Assembly: GCA_947627215.1 (NCBI GenBank)
Contig: CANQVD010000001.1
Span: 62,001 to 126,000, forward strand
Reading direction: 5' to 3'
Source: an uncultured Eisenbergiella sp.
Lineage (GTDB): Bacteria > Bacillota > Clostridia > Lachnospirales > Lachnospiraceae
DNA: 64,000 nucleotides
Positions 4,053 to 60,574 of the stretch are shown here, piece after piece. The position numbers and the translations under genes are program-made. Position 1 is the first letter of the stretch, and every line of letters begins with the position of its first letter. The notes beneath the pieces were generated by a model that saw nothing but the letters and a program-made list of their open reading frames with translations, ran no database searches and was not told the DNA's origin.

Positions 4053-4580
4053 TCATTTCCGGTGCATCCTTCTCCCTGCGGCCTCCTTCAGAAACGAAAA
4101 ATCCTCCTCCCGATAAGGGCCCCAGAACAGGAGGATCAGGATCAGCACACAGATCACGGAAACGAACATATCCGCCACGTTGAAGATCGGGAAATCGATG
4201 AGGCTGATATAGATGAAATCCACAACGTAATCCAGACGGAGCCTGTCCAGAAAATTGCCCAGCGCGCCCGCCGTCAGAAGGGAGCCCAGCACGTGCAGAA
4301 GCCGGAATTTTCCGGTCTTCGGCATATGGTACAGGACGAACGCGGCCGCCGCCAGCACGAGCACCGTGCTGATGAGGAAGAACGTCCGCTGGTTCTGCAG
4401 GACGCCGAAGGCCGCGCCCCGGTTTTCCAGATAGCGAAGCTCCAGCACGCCGGGAATCAGCACGACGGCGGGCTGCCCCTTCAGATGCAGCACCGCCAGA
4501 TGCTTCGTATACTGATCCGCCAGCACGCCGGCGAATGCGATGAACAGATCCAGCAGCAGCCATTTGCTTTTTCGGCCCAT
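4053..4580 (-). CDS. lspA: Lipoprotein signal peptidase (signal peptidase II)
   Basis: A 175-residue membrane aspartyl protease that cuts signal peptides from diacylated prolipoproteins. Four hydrophobic helices are visible. The two catalytic Asp lie in the conserved boxes GALGNFLDRLRLDYVVDF and FPIFNVADMF (about residues 105-140), and the ENRGAAFG box is present. The order rluD-like, lspA is usual. The carboxypeptidase lipoprotein at 9153-10133, with lipobox LTGC, is a likely substrate in this window. Confidence 0.95.
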   Translation of the reverse strand: MGRKSKWLLLDLFIAFAGVLADQYTKHLAVLHLKGQPAVVLIPGVLELRYLENRGAAFGVLQNQRTFFLISTVLVLAAAAFVLYHMPKTGKFRLLHVLGSLLTAGALGNFLDRLRLDYVVDFIYISLIDFPIFNVADMFVSVICVLILILLFWGPYREEDFSFLKEAAGRRMHRK

Positions 4581-4622
4581 AATTTGATCCTCTCCCGTCG
4601 TCTTGTTCTTCTCTCCGCGGCT

Positions 4623-5726
4623 TCAATCCTCTTCCCGAAAGTTCAGTTCTTCCACGGCGGCGCGGATCTCGTCCTCCGTCACGGTATCGTCCAGCACGGC
4701 TTTTCCGATCCGTTCCAGCAGGACGAACCGGATCCGGCCCGCCCGCATTTTCTTGTCGGATTTCGTGAGGGATACGATCTGCTCCACGTCCAGCGCATCC
4801 GCGGAAATGGGCAGATTGAAGGGGACGAACATATCCCGGATCTCATAGTATTCTTCCATGGGGATGAGCTCCCGCTTCCAGGAAATAAAGGCGGCCGCCA
4901 CGCAGCCAAGCGCCACGCATTCCCCGTGGAGCATGGAAAAGCCGCGGGCCTTTTCGATGGCGTGTCCTACCGTATGGCCCAGATTCAGAAGCGCCCGCTC
5001 GCCCTGCTCCGTGGGATCCTTCTCCACCACGCTCCGCTTGATCTCACAGCTTCGCCTTACCATTTCCGGCAGCGTATCCGGATCCCGGTCGCAGATCTCG
5101 TACAGATGGGCGACGAGCCATTCGTAATACCGGCTGTCCCGGATCAGGCCGTGCTTCATCACCTCCGCGAAGCCGGAAAAATACTGCCTCGCGTCCAGCG
5201 TCTGCAGGGTGTCCAGGTTCATATACACGAGCTTCGGCATATGGAAAGCGCCCACCATGTTTTTGTACGCGTCGAAGTCCACACCCGTCTTGCCGCCGAT
5301 GCTGGAATCCACCTGCGCCAGAAGCGTCGTGGGGAGCTGGATGAAATCCACGCCGCGCAGATAGGTGGCCGCCGCGAAGCCGGTCAGATCGCCCGTCACG
5401 CCGCCGCCCAGGGCGGCGAGCAGGTCCCCGCGGTCAAAATGGCGGTCGATGAGGAAGGCGTAGAGCCTGCGGACGGTTTCCAGCGTCTTGTTCTCCTCTC
5501 CCGCCGGGAAGGTGAACACCTCGCAGACGGAAAAAATCCCGCCCAGCGCTTCGCATACCGCCGCCGCATAGAGCGGGCCGACGTTGCTGTCCGTCACGAT
5601 GCAGACCCTGCGCGAGCGGTTCTTTTCCTCTTTTGCCAGTTCATCGGTCAGCTCCGCAAAGCCCCTCGCGAACACGATATCGTAGCAGGGCTTTTTCTGA
5701 TAGGAGACCGTCATTCTTTCCGCCAT
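4623..5726 (-). CDS. aroB: 3-dehydroquinate synthase
   Basis: A 367-residue AroB, the NAD- and metal-dependent enzyme that cyclises DAHP in the second step of the shikimate pathway. Signature segments are GGGVTGDLTGFAAATYLRGV, then LPTTLLAQVDSSIGGKTGVD (about residues 105-145), and the metal His in LNLGHTVGHAIE. Full length. It lies alone among cell-envelope genes rather than in an aro operon, 42 bases upstream of lspA in transcription order. Confidence 0.96.
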   Translation of the reverse strand: MAERMTVSYQKKPCYDIVFARGFAELTDELAKEEKNRSRRVCIVTDSNVGPLYAAAVCEALGGIFSVCEVFTFPAGEENKTLETVRRLYAFLIDRHFDRGDLLAALGGGVTGDLTGFAAATYLRGVDFIQLPTTLLAQVDSSIGGKTGVDFDAYKNMVGAFHMPKLVYMNLDTLQTLDARQYFSGFAEVMKHGLIRDSRYYEWLVAHLYEICDRDPDTLPEMVRRSCEIKRSVVEKDPTEQGERALLNLGHTVGHAIEKARGFSMLHGECVALGCVAAAFISWKRELIPMEEYYEIRDMFVPFNLPISADALDVEQIVSLTKSDKKMRAGRIRFVLLERIGKAVLDDTVTEDEIRAAVEELNFREED

Positions 5727-10525: not shown

Positions 10526-11641
10526 CTATAGATTGTACAGATTCCGTCTCTGCAGCCGTACGTTCAGGACGAGGCCGATGCCGATATACAGGCTCACAAG
10601 AGAGCTCAGGCCGGAGCTGACAAAGGGAAGCGTCTGGCCGGTGGTGGGCATCAGCATGGTGGCGACCGCGATGTTCATGACCCCCTGAACGCCGATCAGC
10701 GCGCCTACACTGCCGGCGATGACCGTGCCCGCCGTATCCTTCGCCATCCTGGCCGTGGACAGGCAGCGCAGCACGATGAAAATGAGGAGAAGAATGACGG
10801 CCACAGAGCCGATAAAGCCGAGCTCTTCCCCGATGACCGCAAAGATGAAATCCGTCTGTGCCTCCGGAAGATAATCTCCGTTCTTCACGGAAGCGATGAC
10901 ATTGTTATTCAGGCCTTTCCCCCAGAGCTGGCCGGAACCGATGGCGATGACGGAATTGAGCTGCTGGTATGCCGTGCTGTCCGCATAGGCCTCCGGATCG
11001 AAGAAGGCCATGATGCGGTTGCGCTGGAAATCCCTCAGCAGCGTCTGATCCTCCTGCATGACGATAGAGAGGAAAATGAGCAGCGTGGGCACGACCACTG
11101 CCAGCACGCCGCCGATGATCTTCCAGCTCAGCCCGCCGATAAAGAGAATGATGCAGAACAGCATGGTGATCAGGATCATCGTGGACAGGTTCGGCTGTCT
11201 GTAAATGAGGACGAGAGGAGGGACTATCAATAAGACCGCAAAAAAGAGGGTGCGGAACGTATTCAATCTCTCTCTGTATTTCATAATAAACTGTGCATAA
11301 AATAAAATCAACAGGATTTTTACAATATCTGACGGCTGGAACTGAATTATTTTCAGATCCAGCCACCGTTTTGCCCCGTTTACCGATTCCCCGAACAGCT
11401 CCACCAGCACCAGCAGGGCGATCATGAGGAAATATTCGGCCCACTGGAGCCTGAGCAGGACGGAATAGTCGAAAAAGGCCAGAAAAAACATGAGGACGAT
11501 GCCGACGGCCATCCCGTAGAGCTGCTTGTCCTGTACGCCCTCCTCCGCGCTCCCGATGGCCAGGATCCCGATCACGTTCAGGGAGACCACCAGAAGGACG
11601 AGGAGAAAGTCAAAATTTTTCAGACGGTACTTTTTGAACAT
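10526..11641 (-). CDS. rodA: Rod-shape SEDS glycosyltransferase RodA
   Basis: A 371-residue polytopic protein of the SEDS family, which polymerises lipid II into glycan strands together with a class B PBP. About ten membrane helices are visible. Family marks are NGAKRWL, QPSDIVKI, and LPEAQTDFIFAVIGEELG near residue 250, followed by the C-terminal PFVSSGLSSL. RodA rather than FtsW is chosen because the gene lies with minCDE, PBP2 and mreBCD. Starts 15 bases after minE with GGAGCG before the ATG. Confidence 0.92.
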   Translation of the reverse strand: MFKKYRLKNFDFLLVLLVVSLNVIGILAIGSAEEGVQDKQLYGMAVGIVLMFFLAFFDYSVLLRLQWAEYFLMIALLVLVELFGESVNGAKRWLDLKIIQFQPSDIVKILLILFYAQFIMKYRERLNTFRTLFFAVLLIVPPLVLIYRQPNLSTMILITMLFCIILFIGGLSWKIIGGVLAVVVPTLLIFLSIVMQEDQTLLRDFQRNRIMAFFDPEAYADSTAYQQLNSVIAIGSGQLWGKGLNNNVIASVKNGDYLPEAQTDFIFAVIGEELGFIGSVAVILLLIFIVLRCLSTARMAKDTAGTVIAGSVGALIGVQGVMNIAVATMLMPTTGQTLPFVSSGLSSLVSLYIGIGLVLNVRLQRRNLYNL

Positions 11642-11656
11642 AAACGCTCCTGTATC

Positions 11657-11929
11657 TCAACTGCTTTTGTGCAGATCCAGGATCGGGATATTGGCCCGCA
11701 GGGACGGATTCCTGTTCCCGATCCCGTATGTGTTGGATTTGCTGATCTGTATTTCCATATTCTGTGTGTCGATCTTCATGTAACGCGAAATGACCTTCGC
11801 AATGTCCTCCTTGATCATATCCAGCATCTCCGGGGAGCAGTTCACCCGGTCCGAAATCAGGAGGATCTTCAGCCTGTCCTTCGCCACTTCGCGGGACGAT
11901 TTGCGTCTGAAAAAATGCGGCAGCTTCAT
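11657..11929 (-). CDS. minE: Cell division topological specificity factor MinE
   Basis: A 90-residue MinE, which stimulates MinD ATPase and drives the Min system to keep division at mid-cell. The N-terminal part has SREVAKDRLKILLISDR, the segment that binds MinD and the membrane; the C-terminal dimer domain includes RYMKIDTQNMEIQISKS. It overlaps the minD stop by four bases (ATGA), showing translational coupling. Having MinE, rather than only DivIVA/MinJ, implies an oscillating Min system. Confidence 0.95.
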   Translation of the reverse strand: MKLPHFFRRKSSREVAKDRLKILLISDRVNCSPEMLDMIKEDIAKVISRYMKIDTQNMEIQISKSNTYGIGNRNPSLRANIPILDLHKSS

Positions 11930-12732
11930 GCTCTCCCCTCCTGACTTTTATGAAAGATACCCGTGACCTTTGTCCAGAAGGAAATGGAACGGTCCAGGTC
12001 CAGATACGGGACATCCTGGCCCAGAATGCGCATGCAGATATTTTTGTAGGCGCGCCCCGCCTGCGTATGGCTCCCCACCAGCGGTTCGCCCTGGTTGGTG
12101 GAGACGACCACGCTTTCGTCGTCGGGAATGACGCCGATCAGGCTCACGGAAAGGATATCCACCACGTCCTCCACGGTCATCATGTCCCCGCGGCGCACCA
12201 TGTCATAGCGCATGCGGTTGATGCACAGGTCGATCCTGTCAAAGGCGTTCGCCTCCAGCAGGCCGATGATGCGGTCCGCGTCCCGGATGGCGGAAACCTC
12301 CGGCGTCGTGACCACCAGCGCCCGGTCCGCTCCGGCGATGGCGTTTTTGAAGCCCTGCTCGATGCCGGCCGGGCAGTCCAGCAGGATGTAGTCGAACTGA
12401 TCCCGAAGCTGCTCGATCAGCTTGCGCATCTGGCTTTCGTTGACGGCCGTCTTGTCTCTGGTCTGCGCCGAGGGAAGCAGATACAGTCCGGGATAACGCT
12501 TGTCCCGGATCAGGGCCTGTTTCACGCGGCAGCTTCCCTCCACCACGTCCACCAGATTATATACGATCCGGTTTTCCAGCCCCATGACCACATCCAGGTT
12601 GCGCAGACCGATGTCCGTATCGATGAGCACAACCTTCCTGCCCGCGGCGGCAAGCCCTGTACCAACGTTTGCGGTGGTGGTGGTTTTCCCGACACCGCCT
12701 TTTCCTGAGGTAACGACGATCACTTCACTCAT
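11926..12732 (-). CDS. minD: Septum site-determining ATPase MinD
   Basis: A 268-residue ParA/MinD ATPase. The deviant Walker A, SGKGGVGKTTTTANVGTGLA, is at residues 9-28, the signature DTDIGLRNLD follows, and the C-terminus carries an amphipathic helix (FWTKVTGIFHKSQEGRA) that would bind the membrane in the ATP state. It recruits MinC to inhibit FtsZ and is displaced by MinE. Order minC-minD-minE with a 47-base gap after minC. Confidence 0.97.
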   Translation of the reverse strand: MSEVIVVTSGKGGVGKTTTTANVGTGLAAAGRKVVLIDTDIGLRNLDVVMGLENRIVYNLVDVVEGSCRVKQALIRDKRYPGLYLLPSAQTRDKTAVNESQMRKLIEQLRDQFDYILLDCPAGIEQGFKNAIAGADRALVVTTPEVSAIRDADRIIGLLEANAFDRIDLCINRMRYDMVRRGDMMTVEDVVDILSVSLIGVIPDDESVVVSTNQGEPLVGSHTQAGRAYKNICMRILGQDVPYLDLDRSISFWTKVTGIFHKSQEGRA

Positions 12733-16379: not shown

Positions 16380-16913
16380 TTATTCCGTACTCCCTCTCCC
16401 TTTGCGTTCCGCAAGCTTCACACACAGCAGCAGGAACGGATAAACAGCCAGAGACACGAGCAGCGTATAGACGGCCTCCGGCAAAATGACGTGGAGAAAA
16501 TAATACCCGATGTTCAGTCTGGCGCGCAGCAGAAACTGAAAGACGTAACGGACAAAATTCAGGGCCAGATCGGACAAAGCGATCAAAAGCAGCGGGAACT
16601 TGATCTCCTCCGGAAAAAAGATCCCGTTGAACTGGCCGCCCGCGTAGCCGGTCAGCAGATAAAGGAGCGCGTAAAAGCCCAGCAGATCCCCCTGCACCAT
16701 TCCGCCGCCGTAGACCGCATACAGATCCGTCAGCAGCCCGCAGGCGAAGCCGACAAGCATCCCGGTCTTTTCCCCGCACAAAAACCCCAGGGAAACCGTC
16801 AGGATCACGAGGAGGTCGGGCGTGATGCCGCCGACCGCGGCCCAGCGCAGGACGCCTGTCTGCAGGAGGAAAAACAGAAATACCAGAAAGGCGGCCATAA
16901 TTCCTTTTTTCAT
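16380..16913 (-). CDS. mreD: Rod shape-determining protein MreD
   Basis: A 177-residue membrane protein with five to six helices, matching MreD in size, hydropathy and position between mreC and PBP2. Typical elements are the first helix (MAAFLVFLFFLLQTGVL), GITPDLLVILTVSLGF and a glycine-rich LLTDLYAVYGGG. It links MreB/MreC to the RodA/PBP2 synthase in the membrane. MreD is poorly conserved, so the call rests on context as well as the motifs. Confidence 0.9.
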   Translation of the reverse strand: MKKGIMAAFLVFLFFLLQTGVLRWAAVGGITPDLLVILTVSLGFLCGEKTGMLVGFACGLLTDLYAVYGGGMVQGDLLGFYALLYLLTGYAGGQFNGIFFPEEIKFPLLLIALSDLALNFVRYVFQFLLRARLNIGYYFLHVILPEAVYTLLVSLAVYPFLLLCVKLAERKGRGSTE

Positions 16914-16929
16914 GACGACTCCTTTCCGG

Positions 16930-17796
16930 TCAGCCCTGCCGTTTCAGCTCCGTCACCACCAGAACCTCCTCCAGGTGGGAAAAATCCACCGCGGGCGTGA
17001 CATAGCCGGATTTGGTCAGGTTATCGGCCGCGGTGCTGACGGAGGAAATATAGCCGATGAGGATGCCGGGCAGATATTTGTCGCTGATGTCGCTGGTGAC
17101 CACCTTGTCCCCCGGGGCCACCCTGTCTTCGGGGTCGGAAAGCTGTCCGAACCGGATGAGCCCTTCTGTCCGGACGGACTGCAGATCCCCGGAAACGATC
17201 ATATTTTCGGCCGTGGCCAGCACCGTCGCGCTCACGTTGTGATTGTCCGAGATGATCGCCTGTACCTTGGCGTAATTGGGACCGACGGAGACCACCCGGC
17301 CCACGAGCCCGCTGCCCGCCAGCACGTTGCAGTCCACCTGCACGCCGTCCGCTTCCCCTTTGTCGATGGTGAAGGAATAGAACCAGTTCCCCGATTCGCT
17401 GGCGATGATCCGCGCGCCGATTTTGTCATAGTCGCTGTAGGTCTGATCCAGCTCGAACAGGGTCCTCAGGCTGTCCAGCTCATACCGGTCCTGAAGGAGC
17501 TGGCTGTTCTCCATGGTCAGCGCGTCAATACGCTCCTTTAACTGTTCATTTTCCGCCAGCACGTCCCGAAGACGCGCCAGCTCCCGGGAGCGGTCGGACA
17601 GATAACCGCCCACCCCGGCGATCCCCTTCTGAAAGGGAACGACCGTTTTCGCCACCACAGCGCGCAGAGGACCTTCAAAGAGGTCCGTGCGGAAGGTAAA
17701 GGCCATCAGAGCGGCACACAGAACGGAAAGCGCAATCAGCAGCGTCCTGCCGGAGATCTGTATTTTTTTGCGTTTCCTTCTGATAACAGGACTCAT
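16930..17796 (-). CDS. mreC: Rod shape-determining protein MreC
   Basis: A 288-residue bitopic protein. A basic cytoplasmic tail (RRKRKKIQISGR) leads into one membrane helix (residues about 18-37), then a coiled coil (ELARLRDVLAENEQLKERID) and the beta-barrel domain with GLVGRVVSVGPNYAKVQAII and DKVVTSDISDKYLPGILIG. It activates PBP2 in the elongasome. The start overlaps the mreB stop by four bases (ATGA). Confidence 0.95.
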   Translation of the reverse strand: MSPVIRRKRKKIQISGRTLLIALSVLCAALMAFTFRTDLFEGPLRAVVAKTVVPFQKGIAGVGGYLSDRSRELARLRDVLAENEQLKERIDALTMENSQLLQDRYELDSLRTLFELDQTYSDYDKIGARIIASESGNWFYSFTIDKGEADGVQVDCNVLAGSGLVGRVVSVGPNYAKVQAIISDNHNVSATVLATAENMIVSGDLQSVRTEGLIRFGQLSDPEDRVAPGDKVVTSDISDKYLPGILIGYISSVSTAADNLTKSGYVTPAVDFSHLEEVLVVTELKRQG

Positions 17797-57597: not shown

Positions 57598-58245
57598 TCA
57601 GGGCTCGTTTTTCTGCGTTTCATAGCGCTCCAGCATATAGGAAAGGCGCATCAGACTGTCGGAAAGGTGCACATTCTCCACCTGCACGCCCTCCGGCACG
57701 TCCAGATCCACGTGGGCGAAATTCCAGATCGCCTTGATTCCCACGCCCGTAAGCTTCCCTGCCACGGCCACGGCCTCGGACTTTGGGATCGTCAGCACGG
57801 CGATGTCCACGTTGTTCTGCTGGATGAACTGCGCCATTTCCTCCATGGGACGCACCTCGATCCCCCGGATCCGTTTTCCGTAAAGCGCGGGGTTGATGTC
57901 GAAGATGCCTGTGAAAATAAAACCGCGCCGCGCAAAATTCATGTAATTGGCGAGCGCCTGTCCCAGATTGCCCGCGCCCACGATGATCAGATTGTGCGTC
58001 TTGTTCAGCCCCAGGATCTTCCCGATCTCCGTATATAAATATTCTACATTATATCCGTAGCCCTGCTGTCCGAATCCGCCGAAATGGTTGAAATCCTGCC
58101 GGATCTGGGATGCCGTCACGCGCATGAGCTCCGAAAGCTCCTGTGAGGAGATGCGTTCCACGCCCTGATCCCTCAATTCCCCGAGATATCTGAAATATCT
58201 CGGCAGCCGGCCGATCACGGCCTGCGATATTTCCTTTTCCGCCAT
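57598..58245 (-). CDS. rex: Redox-sensing transcriptional repressor Rex
   Basis: A 215-residue Rex. The winged-helix DNA-binding part (about 1-85) includes VIGRLPRYFRYLGELRDQGV and SQIRQDFNHFGGFGQQGYGY. The Rossmann domain has LIIVGAGNLGQALANYMNFA, which senses the NADH/NAD ratio. Rex represses fermentative and NADH-use genes until NADH rises. The ATG at 58245 follows AGGAGG; the upstream frame is not used. A candidate operator overlaps its own promoter (58270-58298), so it is probably autoregulated. Confidence 0.96.
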   Translation of the reverse strand: MAEKEISQAVIGRLPRYFRYLGELRDQGVERISSQELSELMRVTASQIRQDFNHFGGFGQQGYGYNVEYLYTEIGKILGLNKTHNLIIVGAGNLGQALANYMNFARRGFIFTGIFDINPALYGKRIRGIEVRPMEEMAQFIQQNNVDIAVLTIPKSEAVAVAGKLTGVGIKAIWNFAHVDLDVPEGVQVENVHLSDSLMRLSYMLERYETQKNEP

Positions 58246-58269
58246 GCCCAACACCTCCTCATCCCTCAC

Positions 58270-58298
58270 ATTATACAACTCTGTTAAAAATCTGTCAA
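58270..58298 (-). promoter_or_regulatory. Consensus promoter of rex with a candidate Rex operator
   Basis: Minus strand TTGACA (58293-58298), 17 bases, TATAAT (58270-58275): a perfect consensus. From 58298 down to 58281 the strand reads TTGACAGATTTTTAACAG, 14 of 18 positions like the Rex site TTGTTAAATTTTTAACAA. The operator would cover the -35 and spacer. Confidence 0.75.
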
Positions 58299-58304
58299 TG
58301 CGTT

Positions 58305-58509
58305 CGCCCCCCGGAGACCAACGTTCCCCGCCGCCGCGCCCGGCCCGCGCAGATTCCTTTTCCGGACACGCTTGCGCTCGGAAGAAAAGCGTAGCGGTAC
58401 ATAACGCCGCAGAAGACGCGGCGTAAGTACCGGCGCTTTTCTACGGTCCGGGAAAATGGAATATGCGCGGGCCGGGCGCGGCGGCGGGGGACGTTGGTCT
58501 CCGGGGGCG
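58305..58509. repeat. 205-base nested inverted repeat between rex and the ABC-F gene
   Basis: Arms 58305-58367 and 58446-58509 are inverted copies: by hand alignment 60 of 65 columns match, with two mismatches and three single-base gaps. Inside lies a second stem: AGAAAAGCG (58383-58391) with CGCTTTTCT (58434-58442), GGTAC (58396-58400) with GTACC (58427-58431), and CGCCGC (58405-58410) with GCGGCG (58418-58423), around loop 58411-58417. It fills the gap between two divergent promoters. The whole 58246-58609 stretch carries no credible gene: the frames inside are artefacts of the palindrome. Confidence 0.9.
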
Positions 58510-58519
58510 TTTTCCCGCC

Positions 58520-58548
58520 TTGACACCGCGGCCGTTCCCGGATAAACT
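58520..58548 (+). promoter_or_regulatory. Promoter of the ABC-F gene
   Basis: TTGACA (58520-58525), 17-base spacer and TAAACT (58543-58548). A short hairpin GGAAC/GTTCC (58565-58578) lies in the 55-base leader, then GGGGGA before the ATG at 58610. Confidence 0.6.
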
Positions 58549-58609
58549 ATAACAGGACGGTCCGGGAACAGCCGTTCCTGCTGTCATACCCGAAACGGGG
58601 GATTTCGTT

Positions 58610-60574
58610 ATGATACTTTCCTGTCAGAATATTGAAAAAGCATTCCTGGAGCAGCCGGTTCTGAAGAACTGCTCCTTTCATCTGGAGGACCATGAAAAGG
58701 CGGCCATCGTGGGCATCAACGGCGCCGGCAAAACCACGCTCCTGCGCATTCTCGTTGGGGAGCTGGAGCCGGACGGGGGCGTCGTCGCCCTCTCCCGGGG
58801 CAAAACCTTCGGCTATCTTCCGCAGGACGCGGCGGTCAATACCGACCGCACCATATACGAGGAGCTTCTGTCCGTCAAGCAGCATCTGGTGGACATGGAA
58901 CGCCTGATCCGGGAAACGGAGCTTTCCATGAAGCAGGCGCAGGGGGAAGCTCTGGAGCTTCTGATGCGCAAATATGCGGATCTGAACCACGCCTTTGAGC
59001 AGGAAAACGGATACGCCTTTCAGAGCGAGCTGACCGGCGTGCTCAAGGGACTGGGATTTGCCGCGGAGGATTTTTCCAGACAGGTCTCCACGCTTTCCGG
59101 CGGCCAGAAGACCCGGGTGGCACTGGGCAAGCTGCTGCTGAAGGCCCCGGACCTGATCATTCTGGACGAGCCAACCAACCATCTGGACATGTCCTCCATC
59201 GCCTGGCTGGAAACCTGGCTGATGAACTACCGCGGCGCCGTCCTCATCGTGTCTCACGACCGGTATTTTCTGGACCGGGTGGCGGAAAAGATCATCGAAA
59301 TCGACAACACCCGCGTAACTGTTTTTTCCGGAAATTACACCGCCTATGCGTCCAAAAAGGAACAGCTTCGCCGGGCGGCCTGGAACGCTTATGTCAACCA
59401 GCAGGCGGAAATCCGCCATCAGGAGGAGGTCATCGCAAAGCTGCGCTCCTTCAACCGTGAGAAATCCATCCGGCGGGCGGAGAGCCGGGAGAAAATGCTC
59501 TCAAAGCTCGACGTCATCGACAGACCCGCAGAGGTCGACGCGGATATGAGGATCACCCTGACGCCCCGCATCGTCAGCGGCAGCGATGTGCTCACCGTGG
59601 AGCATCTGTCCAAGGCTTTCGGCGGAAACCGCCTGTTTGACGACCTCTCCTTTTCCGTCAGGCGTGGCGAGCATGTGGCCGTCATCGGGGACAACGGAAC
59701 GGGCAAGACCACCATTCTGAAGATCATCAACGGGCTGGAGACGGCGGATGGCGGCAGGATCGCCACCGGAAGCCGGGTACAGATCGGCTATTACGACCAG
59801 GAGCATCACGTGCTGCATCCGGACAAGACGCTGTTCGAGGAAATTTCCGACGCTTATCCGGGCCTTGGCAATACCGAGATCCGCAATACGCTGGCCGCCT
59901 TCCTTTTCACCGGAGAGGACGTGTTCAAACGGATCCGGGACCTTTCCGGCGGGGAACGGGGCCGGGTTTCCCTGGCGAAGCTGATGCTGTCCGAATCCAA
60001 TTTTCTGATCCTGGACGAGCCTACCAACCATCTGGACATCGCCTCCAAGGAAATCCTGGAGGACGCGCTGAACGGATATGTCGGGACTGTCCTCTATGTA
60101 TCCCATGACCGGTATTTCATCAACCGCACCGCCCACCGGATCCTGGAGCTGTCCGGCCGTACGCTGACCCAGTATCTGGGGAATTACGACTATTATCTGG
60201 AAAAAAAGAACGTCTCCGCCGATCCGGCCGGCCAGACCGGCCTGTACGGCAGGACCGACGCGCACGGCTGGGAAAGCGCGCCCTTCCGGGACGGGACGTC
60301 GCCCCGGCCGGCGGAAAGAGTTTCCGCGGCCAAGCTCTCCTGGCAGGAAAAGAAGGAACAGGAAGCCGCCCGCCGCAGGAAGGAGAACGCCCTGAAGAAA
60401 TGTGAGGACCGCATCGCCCTGCTGGAGGCCAGAGACCGGGAAATCGACGGACAGATGAGCGAACCGGACACGGCCTGCGACGTGGCCGCCCTGCAGTCCT
60501 TAAGCAGGGAAAAAGCGGATATCGCCGCCAGGCTGGAAGCGCTGATGGAGGAATGGGAAACGCTGAGCGAATAA
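58610..60574 (+). CDS. ABC-F family ATPase
   Basis: A 654-residue soluble protein with two ABC domains and no membrane part: the ABC-F group, which acts on ribosomes (translation factors such as EttA/Uup, or antibiotic protection). Walker A loops are GINGAGKTTLLRILVG (about 37-52) and GDNGTGKTTILKIINGLE (about 362-379). The signatures are TLSGGQKTRVALGKLL and LSGGERGRVSLAKLML. The inter-domain linker is about 80 residues. The C-terminal 100 residues form a charged coiled coil (ENALKKCEDRIALLEARDRE), as in Uup/YdiF. No drug-leader peptide is seen, so a housekeeping YdiF-type factor is likelier than resistance. Confidence 0.92.
   Translation: MILSCQNIEKAFLEQPVLKNCSFHLEDHEKAAIVGINGAGKTTLLRILVGELEPDGGVVALSRGKTFGYLPQDAAVNTDRTIYEELLSVKQHLVDMERLIRETELSMKQAQGEALELLMRKYADLNHAFEQENGYAFQSELTGVLKGLGFAAEDFSRQVSTLSGGQKTRVALGKLLLKAPDLIILDEPTNHLDMSSIAWLETWLMNYRGAVLIVSHDRYFLDRVAEKIIEIDNTRVTVFSGNYTAYASKKEQLRRAAWNAYVNQQAEIRHQEEVIAKLRSFNREKSIRRAESREKMLSKLDVIDRPAEVDADMRITLTPRIVSGSDVLTVEHLSKAFGGNRLFDDLSFSVRRGEHVAVIGDNGTGKTTILKIINGLETADGGRIATGSRVQIGYYDQEHHVLHPDKTLFEEISDAYPGLGNTEIRNTLAAFLFTGEDVFKRIRDLSGGERGRVSLAKLMLSESNFLILDEPTNHLDIASKEILEDALNGYVGTVLYVSHDRYFINRTAHRILELSGRTLTQYLGNYDYYLEKKNVSADPAGQTGLYGRTDAHGWESAPFRDGTSPRPAERVSAAKLSWQEKKEQEAARRRKENALKKCEDRIALLEARDREIDGQMSEPDTACDVAALQSLSREKADIAARLEALMEEWETLSE

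Follow-up and report, generated by a model that had tools for sequence, protein, structure and literature searches.

A large family of long palindromic hairpins with one conserved apex, probably mobile and with arms that appear to change in concert, in Lachnospiraceae

What is a near-perfect palindrome of 200 bp doing between two divergent genes of an uncultured Eisenbergiella? The window, the whole stretch of 64,000 nucleotides that was analysed, comes from a genome of 4.0 Mb in 108 contigs (G000) and carries this palindrome between the gene for the redox-sensing repressor Rex (57598..58278, minus strand; NCBIfam NF003990, E = 3e-99; its start codon may be further in) and the gene for a ribosomal protection-like ABC-F protein (58610..60574, plus strand; NCBIfam NF000355, E = 7.4e-140, with Pfam ABC_tran and ABC_tran_Xtn). 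The initial annotation described a long nested inverted repeat with a second inner stem, and both are present. A repeat search placed the arms at 58308-58361 and 58454-58507, with 54 nt each, 94% complementarity and 92 nt between them. The claimed length of 205 bases was close, as the hairpin proper, delimited by repeat search, folding and arm extension and assigned to no strand, has 200 bp (58308..58507). Folding of 58293-58525 gave −184.4 and −179.7 kcal/mol on the two strands (z about −16), and none of 200 shuffles folded as well on either strand. The other inverted repeats in the window (at least 24 nt, arms no more than 400 nt apart) come to four pairs of 25-30 nt with 70-79% complementarity. 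The palindrome is real and lies far beyond chance.

Within it, folding and the covariation of related copies described below define a conserved core of 108 bp that runs from TTCC to GGAA and forms the hairpin apex (58354..58461, plus strand). The left arm outside this core (58308..58353, plus strand) has 46 nt, 44 of which match the right arm (58462..58507, plus strand) in the arm alignment. The core contains an inner stem, P2 (58383..58442, plus strand), with a conserved two-base bulge and an apical hairpin on top (58404-58424, plus strand), and a mini-hairpin, P3 (58370..58377, minus strand), whose minus-strand loop, 58375-58372, reads GCAA and is a GNRA loop. The pairs of the inner stem are formed by AGAAAAGCG at 58383-58391 with 58434-58442, then by CGGTAC/GTACCG and ACGCCGC/GCGGCGT. 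The longest mechanical open reading frame across the hairpin has 80 amino acids and extends past both ends of the element.

The palindrome is bounded by two outward-facing promoters. On the left, TGTCAA (58293-58298) lies 17 nt from a good −10 box, ATTATA (58270-58275), which gives the minus-strand rex promoter TTGACA/17 nt/TATAAT (58270..58298). On the right, TTGACA (58520-58525) lies 17 nt from another good −10 box, TAAACT (58543-58548), in the plus-strand promoter of the ABC-F gene (58520..58548). The two −35 boxes do extend the symmetry of the palindrome, as had been noted, and neither flanking promoter reads into it; no promoter of the element's own was identified at the site. The suggestion that the boxes are part of the element failed: in the orthologous region of all eight relatives printed (G001, G002, G003, G006, G007, G009, G010 and G012) the element is absent and both boxes are present. 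Because the boxes are kept where the palindrome is absent, in G003, G002 and the other relatives, they are parts of host promoters and lie outside the element. These comparisons indicate that the divergent rex and ABC-F promoters are the older feature and that the element was inserted between them, as would be expected of a non-autonomous mobile element. The element-free site of G003 reads TGTCAATGCGCGTTCCCCGCCTTGACA, and that of G002 sits at the end of a contig, its left flank aligning over about 50 bp. Both genomes lack the element here yet carry copies of its family elsewhere. The initial annotation saw no clear target duplication, and comparison with the empty G003 site agrees, CGTT being the sole and unconvincing candidate.

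Two side observations concern this intergenic region. A second, small inverted repeat at 58529-58574 (14-nt arms, 93%, 18 nt apart) overlaps the ABC-F −10 box and leader and might be part of leader control of that gene. In G006, the region between rex and the ABC-F gene (L169, G006:C35:167000-169300) holds two other long hairpins with a different apex, one of them bounded by GTAACAGTTCAGCC, an end sequence found at 55 G006 sites.

The search for further copies in the same genome left no room for a single-copy element. A blastn search with 58293-58525 gave 42 matches in G000: the query site, that site inverted, and 40 other places, each of these 40 covering query positions 71-157. When at most three mismatches were allowed, a core pattern found 59 places in G000, 56 in G003, 23 in G002 and 22 in G011; in G000 at least one, C60, is not a real copy, and a reversed control pattern had no match in these four genomes. 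The G003 assembly is 95% complete and that of G002 68%. After exclusion of 31 of 160 pattern matches as half copies, copies with weak arms or chance hits, and removal of one duplicate, the set comprised 128 distinct full copies: 56 from G000, 53 from sister-species loci, 17 from G011 and 2 from G034. The window's own genome contains at least 56 distinct full copies.

The fetched copies are built alike, with an arm on each side of a core of about 105-120 bp that lies between TTCC and GGAA; one sister-species copy has a core of 139 bp. Where they could be anchored, the arms were 32-104 bp long. Four entries of the anchoring set were without usable arms: L020 and L029 (misplaced anchors or unpaired inner arm bases), the half copy in L021, and L017, which was unanchored. 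Arms match near-perfectly within a copy and differ between copies. Over the 56 G000 copies, 3132 arm positions were paired, 197 mismatched and 41 gapped; the corresponding numbers were 2815, 168 and 24 in the sister-species loci, 880, 130 and 14 in G011, and 44, 3 and 7 in G034. Arms of different copies in one genome show at best a distant similarity, which in the best pair reaches 73 nt from the core; as this similarity extends to about 73-75 nt, the arms seem to belong to the element. A few half copies (L104, L116 and L119 in G011, and L128 at 2457 in G000) consist of a left arm and left half-core joined to unrelated sequence.

The apex is the shared part. RNAalifold, run on 48 chosen cores (from 74 listed, with 118 distinct), predicted an arm stem (P1), the inner stem P2 with its two-base bulge and apical hairpin, and the mini-stem P3. 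Of the 24 pairs in the apex, 18 have changes on both sides, and the cells changed on both sides number 204, against a shuffle mean of 52.7 and with none of 500 shuffles as high. When the pair partners were slid along the alignment, the paired fraction fell from 97.6% to 38-47%; further pair types were no more numerous than chance allows (56 of 500 shuffles). The P3 loop on the minus strand is a GNRA loop in 127 of the 128 copies. Among 44 loci from model searches, two of them from G000, 35 have the strict P3 and P2 motif and nine fall outside the strict pattern; all 35 have the GNRA loop and arms that reach at least 20 nt (median 31). On this model the apex is a conserved, strongly covarying three-way junction that includes a GNRA loop. 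A known RNA family was ruled out, as Rfam 15 gave no match at gathering score in the window or in eight copy-bearing loci, and its long-hairpin miRNA models matched the element weakly, far under their cut-off.

A covariance model search at E ≤ 1e-4 showed how far the family extends. The model matched 108 of 299 Lachnospiraceae genomes (one per genus, G000 included) and 7 of 291 genomes drawn from the class, all seven being Lachnospiraceae, so that this second sample doubles as a specificity control. To date the hairpin family is known from Lachnospiraceae alone, where about a third of the genera sampled have it. Matches per genome range from one (G138, and G268, a single contig) through 3, 5, 12 and 15 to at least 131 (G146) and at least 132 (G304), the last two being lower bounds with 150 candidates scored. 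Of 12 other species of the genus, three (G002, G003 and G011) had copies by blastn of the core and nine had none, a result of blastn alone, which diverged copies could escape. In a public genome set the core pattern gave 57 stretches, only in metagenome-assembled genomes (MAGs) titled uncultured Eisenbergiella, isolates 'Lapin'. Viral or plasmid cargo was ruled out by blastn, which found no match in plasmid and phage collections (distant mode, E ≤ 1e-5). A 17-base pattern did match 105 viral stretches, and among the 80 listed as loci one scored below E = 1e-4 (L326, 29.9 bits) and folded without the long hairpin; these pattern matches were treated as chance. No paper in the open-licence literature searched describes the hairpin family by title or abstract. 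The family is large, has no match in Rfam 15 and is apparently undescribed in that literature. In the single-contig genome G268, two opposite apex motifs lie about 500 bp apart in L242 (at ~4003 and ~4511), one of them above the model threshold.

That the element belongs to a mobile palindromic repeat family is well supported by comparison of sites between genomes. The possibility of a small non-autonomous mobile element, raised in the initial annotation, gained from both of the things looked for, further copies in the genome and sites without the element in relatives. Besides the window site, the site of a G000 copy on C13 is element-free in G003 and G002, with a candidate six-base duplication, GGATGA/GGTTGA, that matches in five of six positions; at the other compared sites target duplications were ambiguous. 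Some sites are unclean. L052 (~1000) and L186 (G003:C1:49900-50600) are without the apex and keep sequence resembling one arm, as either deletion remnants or arms that predate the insertion. L073 keeps the left arm and half the core, and other orthologous sites hold unrelated sequence.

The ends of the element vary among genomes. G000 has no common end, its enriched 8-mers being GC-rich only, and shows neither a shared terminal repeat nor a clear target duplication. In G304, five close pairs of GTAACAGTTCAG stand in inverted orientation 220-234 bp apart, and four of the five enclose a listed model match (C4:263864, C11:94629, C37:27396 and C39:14580). This end sequence was not found in G000. 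G006 has no core match by blastn, yet it has 55 sites of the GTAACAGTTCAG end sequence and many short pairs, which implies that the same ends carry other interiors. The 36 copies viewed in G146 are alike, with common ends by eye, and lie partly in tandem arrays with periods of about 164-189 bp. As the ends of G304, G146 and G000 differ, one conserved apex appears to sit on palindromes with different ends. Two features were seen in G146 alongside this. The arrays in L229 (~11640-12132), L231 (~16463-16997) and L232 (~4441-4815), whose periods are 164-187 bp, look as though whole hairpins had been amplified locally. In L214, L233 and L234, copies are cut at the P2 end and continue with a recurrent hairpin, TTCATATCATAGG..CCTATGATATGAA, and then AAAACCCTYCGGGGG; it looks as if the P2 end had been the insertion point of another mobile element or had been captured by it.

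What might move the element was sought among Y1 transposases (PF01797), the only transposase family searched for, and no mobiliser was found. PF01797 is present in G000, G007, G009 and G011 and was not detected in the carriers G002 (68% complete), G003 (95%) and G034; G007 and G009 have the Y1 transposase and lack the hairpin family by blastn. As the presence of Y1 does not track the family, we rejected a REP/RAYT reading. We also rejected an autonomous version that carries a gene in its apical loop, as the half cores examined (L021/L128, L104, L116, L118, L119, L130 and some G146 copies) look like copies that were truncated or interrupted; by eye, none of the open reading frames at two G146 loci was transposase-like.

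The arms of a copy pair with each other and, between species, change together, which goes against the refuting condition set in the initial annotation, arms that neither covary nor persist. Comparison of G000 with sister-species loci, most of the compared sequences being MAGs, gave 34 ortholog rows, of which two were dropped for a wrongly paired neighbouring copy, leaving 32. Mirrored changes were counted in 27 rows, the arms of the other five being too diverged to align. In 1322 arm columns we found 63 mirrored changes, 138 one-sided changes and 49 others; under independence of the arms 6.6 mirrored changes are expected, about one-tenth of the number observed. Of the 27 rows, 17 contain mirrored changes and 10 have none. 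Relative to its flanks, the apex has the opposite orientation in 12 of 32 rows (11 of 29 distinct G000 copies). At some sites the arms persist with an exchanged apex type, as in L042/L084, where 49 nt of arm are 100% identical and the cores 82%. Divergence between the species is 11% in the arms, on either side, and 7.4% in the flanks, which are largely coding. As the arms diverge no less than the flanks, selection that acts only on pairing would explain the pattern poorly.

These patterns support a concerted change of the two arms, and its mechanism can be proposed from the alignments. Complementarity would be kept by DNA events inside the palindrome, namely template switching during replication and recombination between the arms. 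Correction of one arm by the other, with occasional crossing over, could produce both the mirrored changes and the flips of the apex, and apex swaps may have arisen by exchange or gene conversion between copies. Template switching in Escherichia coli is described as making imperfect palindromes more perfect (PMC7202029), and template switching or conversion is discussed, in a passage on nematomorph mitochondrial inverted repeats, as their possible cause (PMC6649704). The excess of one-sided over mirrored changes, 138 to 63, counts against homogenisation. With this included, we favour a mobile, MITE-like hairpin in which template switching or recombination between the arms homogenises the two arms, and give this reading a probability of roughly 0.65.

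The alternative that survives best, an unlikely one in our view, is a structured RNA that serves the host. Its apex would be a three-way junction of RNA that a protein binds or that acts in cis in 3' regions, and selection on the transcript would keep the arms paired. The GNRA loop of the minus strand, the covariation of the apex and the recurrence of the motif in the 35 loci from model searches are what such an RNA would show. The gene context of the copies, which counts towards the favoured mobile hairpin, was assigned with a home-made hexamer-scoring gene caller, in which negative distances reflect misplaced gene starts. By this measure, tandem genes flank 28 of the 56 G000 copies, convergent genes 19 and divergent genes four; four were scored inside an open reading frame and one was unplaceable. 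The ratio of convergent to divergent settings, 19:4, has P = 0.003 if both are taken as equally likely, a calculation that ignores the genome frequency of such gene pairs. Between tandem genes the median distance is 15 nt to the upstream stop and 97.5 nt to the next start. The window copy, lying between divergent genes, is atypical for its family.

As most copies stand close behind stop codons, a transcribed hairpin may act as a two-sided transcript-end structure, either a terminator or a 3' shield, a weaker part of the favoured reading as a mobile hairpin. T-runs of at least four after the hairpin were found at 7 of 28 tandem copies in sense, 0 of 28 in antisense and 5 of 38 convergent ends; the A-run control gave 6 of 28, 2 of 28 and 3 of 38. 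Among arm mismatches of the tandem copies, read on the gene-sense strand, G-U exceeds A-C by 42 to 20 (P = 0.007), a bias in favour of the structured RNA that fits transcript pairing and also strand-biased mutation. Sorted by apex strand, the G000 mismatches number 76 G-U and 54 A-C (P = 0.065), and copies with more G-U than A-C outnumber the opposite by 22 to 14 (P = 0.24). Pooled over G000, the sister loci and G011, the excess of 205 to 135 falls on the strand opposite the GNRA strand, against the expectation for a structured RNA. With T-runs uncommon and the mismatch bias ambiguous, a transcript-end role remains a proposal rather than a result, and a terminator role in particular is weak. 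Also against a host-serving RNA are the inverted apices, which an RNA bound to one orientation would not tolerate, the arms that differ between species by no less than the flanks do, and the absence of copies at some sister-species sites.

An improbable alternative is that the apex itself makes palindromes, the end of a folded strand priming the copying of adjacent DNA so that arms are captured and re-made, not inherited. The same apex on unrelated arms and different ends across genera would fit this, as would the two apex-free orthologous sites that resemble one arm only (L011/L052; L182 compared with G003), but the latter may be deletion remnants. At the window site and at that of the C13 copy, moreover, the sister species have neither apex nor arm, the arms within a genome are similar to about 75 nt, as if inherited, and the G146 copies viewed share nearly identical arms. 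A broader claim, which we consider rather unlikely and state tentatively, is that the apex is a new genetic module organising palindromes, a folded tip of RNA or single-stranded DNA that keeps or re-makes its flanks as a perfect inverted copy. If so, each copy would own a private, continually self-corrected stem, and the family would represent a class of self-templating mobile elements, found in roughly one in three of the Lachnospiraceae genera sampled and put to use again within MITEs whose ends are unrelated.

Very improbable is a fixed DNA-level device between divergent promoters, such as a cruciform, supercoil buffer, insulator or protein-binding site, as the initial annotation had considered: the position between two −35 boxes and the extreme folding energy would suit it, but none of the eight relatives printed has the element in this intergenic region, and a divergent setting, far from being usual, is shared by only four of the 56 copies. 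We give almost no credence to an artefact of metagenome binning, in which collapsed repeats would create the palindromes, the arm identity or the apex orientation, although collapse during assembly is a genuine risk with MAGs. Long inverted repeats are hard to assemble, the related assemblies (L046-L102) are MAGs with NODE-style contig names, and two of the 12 inverted rows have, in one or both assemblies, a perfect arm run that reaches 55 nt, the final k that metaSPAdes normally uses. In the other 10, however, the longest run is shorter than 55 nt in both assemblies, arms differ between copies and keep mismatches and bulges, and many separate genomes carry the family, including the single-contig genomes G227 and G268 (L203 and L242 in G268).

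The hairpin adds a large repeat family to a bacterial family that is among the main ones of the gut; two scored genomes have at least 131 and at least 132 copies. It also offers a natural test bed for the perfection of palindromes, as matched sites in the sister species, dozens in number, show mirrored, one-sided and inverted states. Should transcripts end at the hairpins, these would be mobile gene-end elements that reshape 3' regions between close species.

Several known systems resemble parts of this picture. Like intrinsic, and in particular bidirectional, terminators, the element is a GC-rich hairpin behind stop codons, with A-rich and T-rich flanks of P2 in the Eisenbergiella copies; the usual intrinsic terminator is far smaller, however, T-runs follow the outer stem in a minority of copies, and P2 has no T-run in some other genera (e.g., L204, L206 and L216). 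REP and REPIN elements, which are associated with RAYT (Y1) transposases, are likewise extragenic palindromes present in many copies and often near gene ends, but the hairpin described here is much longer and its carriers G002, G003 and G034 had no detectable Y1 transposase. Rickettsia palindromic elements are also dispersed palindromes, of about 100-200 bp. As far as they are treated in a study of Nematomorpha, they lose the identity of their repeats over time (PMC6649704), whereas the arms of our hairpins keep their identity while their sequence changes. The mitochondrial genes of Nematomorpha themselves contain long near-perfect inverted repeats that seem to be actively maintained, which the corresponding part of that study places in coding genes, with no common apex or spread as a repeat family (PMC6649704). 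Bacterial MITEs are likewise short, intergenic, patchy in distribution and present in many copies with long inverted repeats, and have transcripts that would fold into stable hairpins; a review describes them as typically AT-rich (PMC10969869). Our element, at 200 bp unable to encode its own transposase, shares with them its many copies and element-free sites, and the paired GTAACAGTTCAG ends around model matches in G304 add to the likeness. The window copy, in contrast, is GC-rich, and the family differs from MITEs in its lack of a shared terminal repeat or clear target duplication in G000, in having one apex across different ends, and in arms that are private to each copy and change together.
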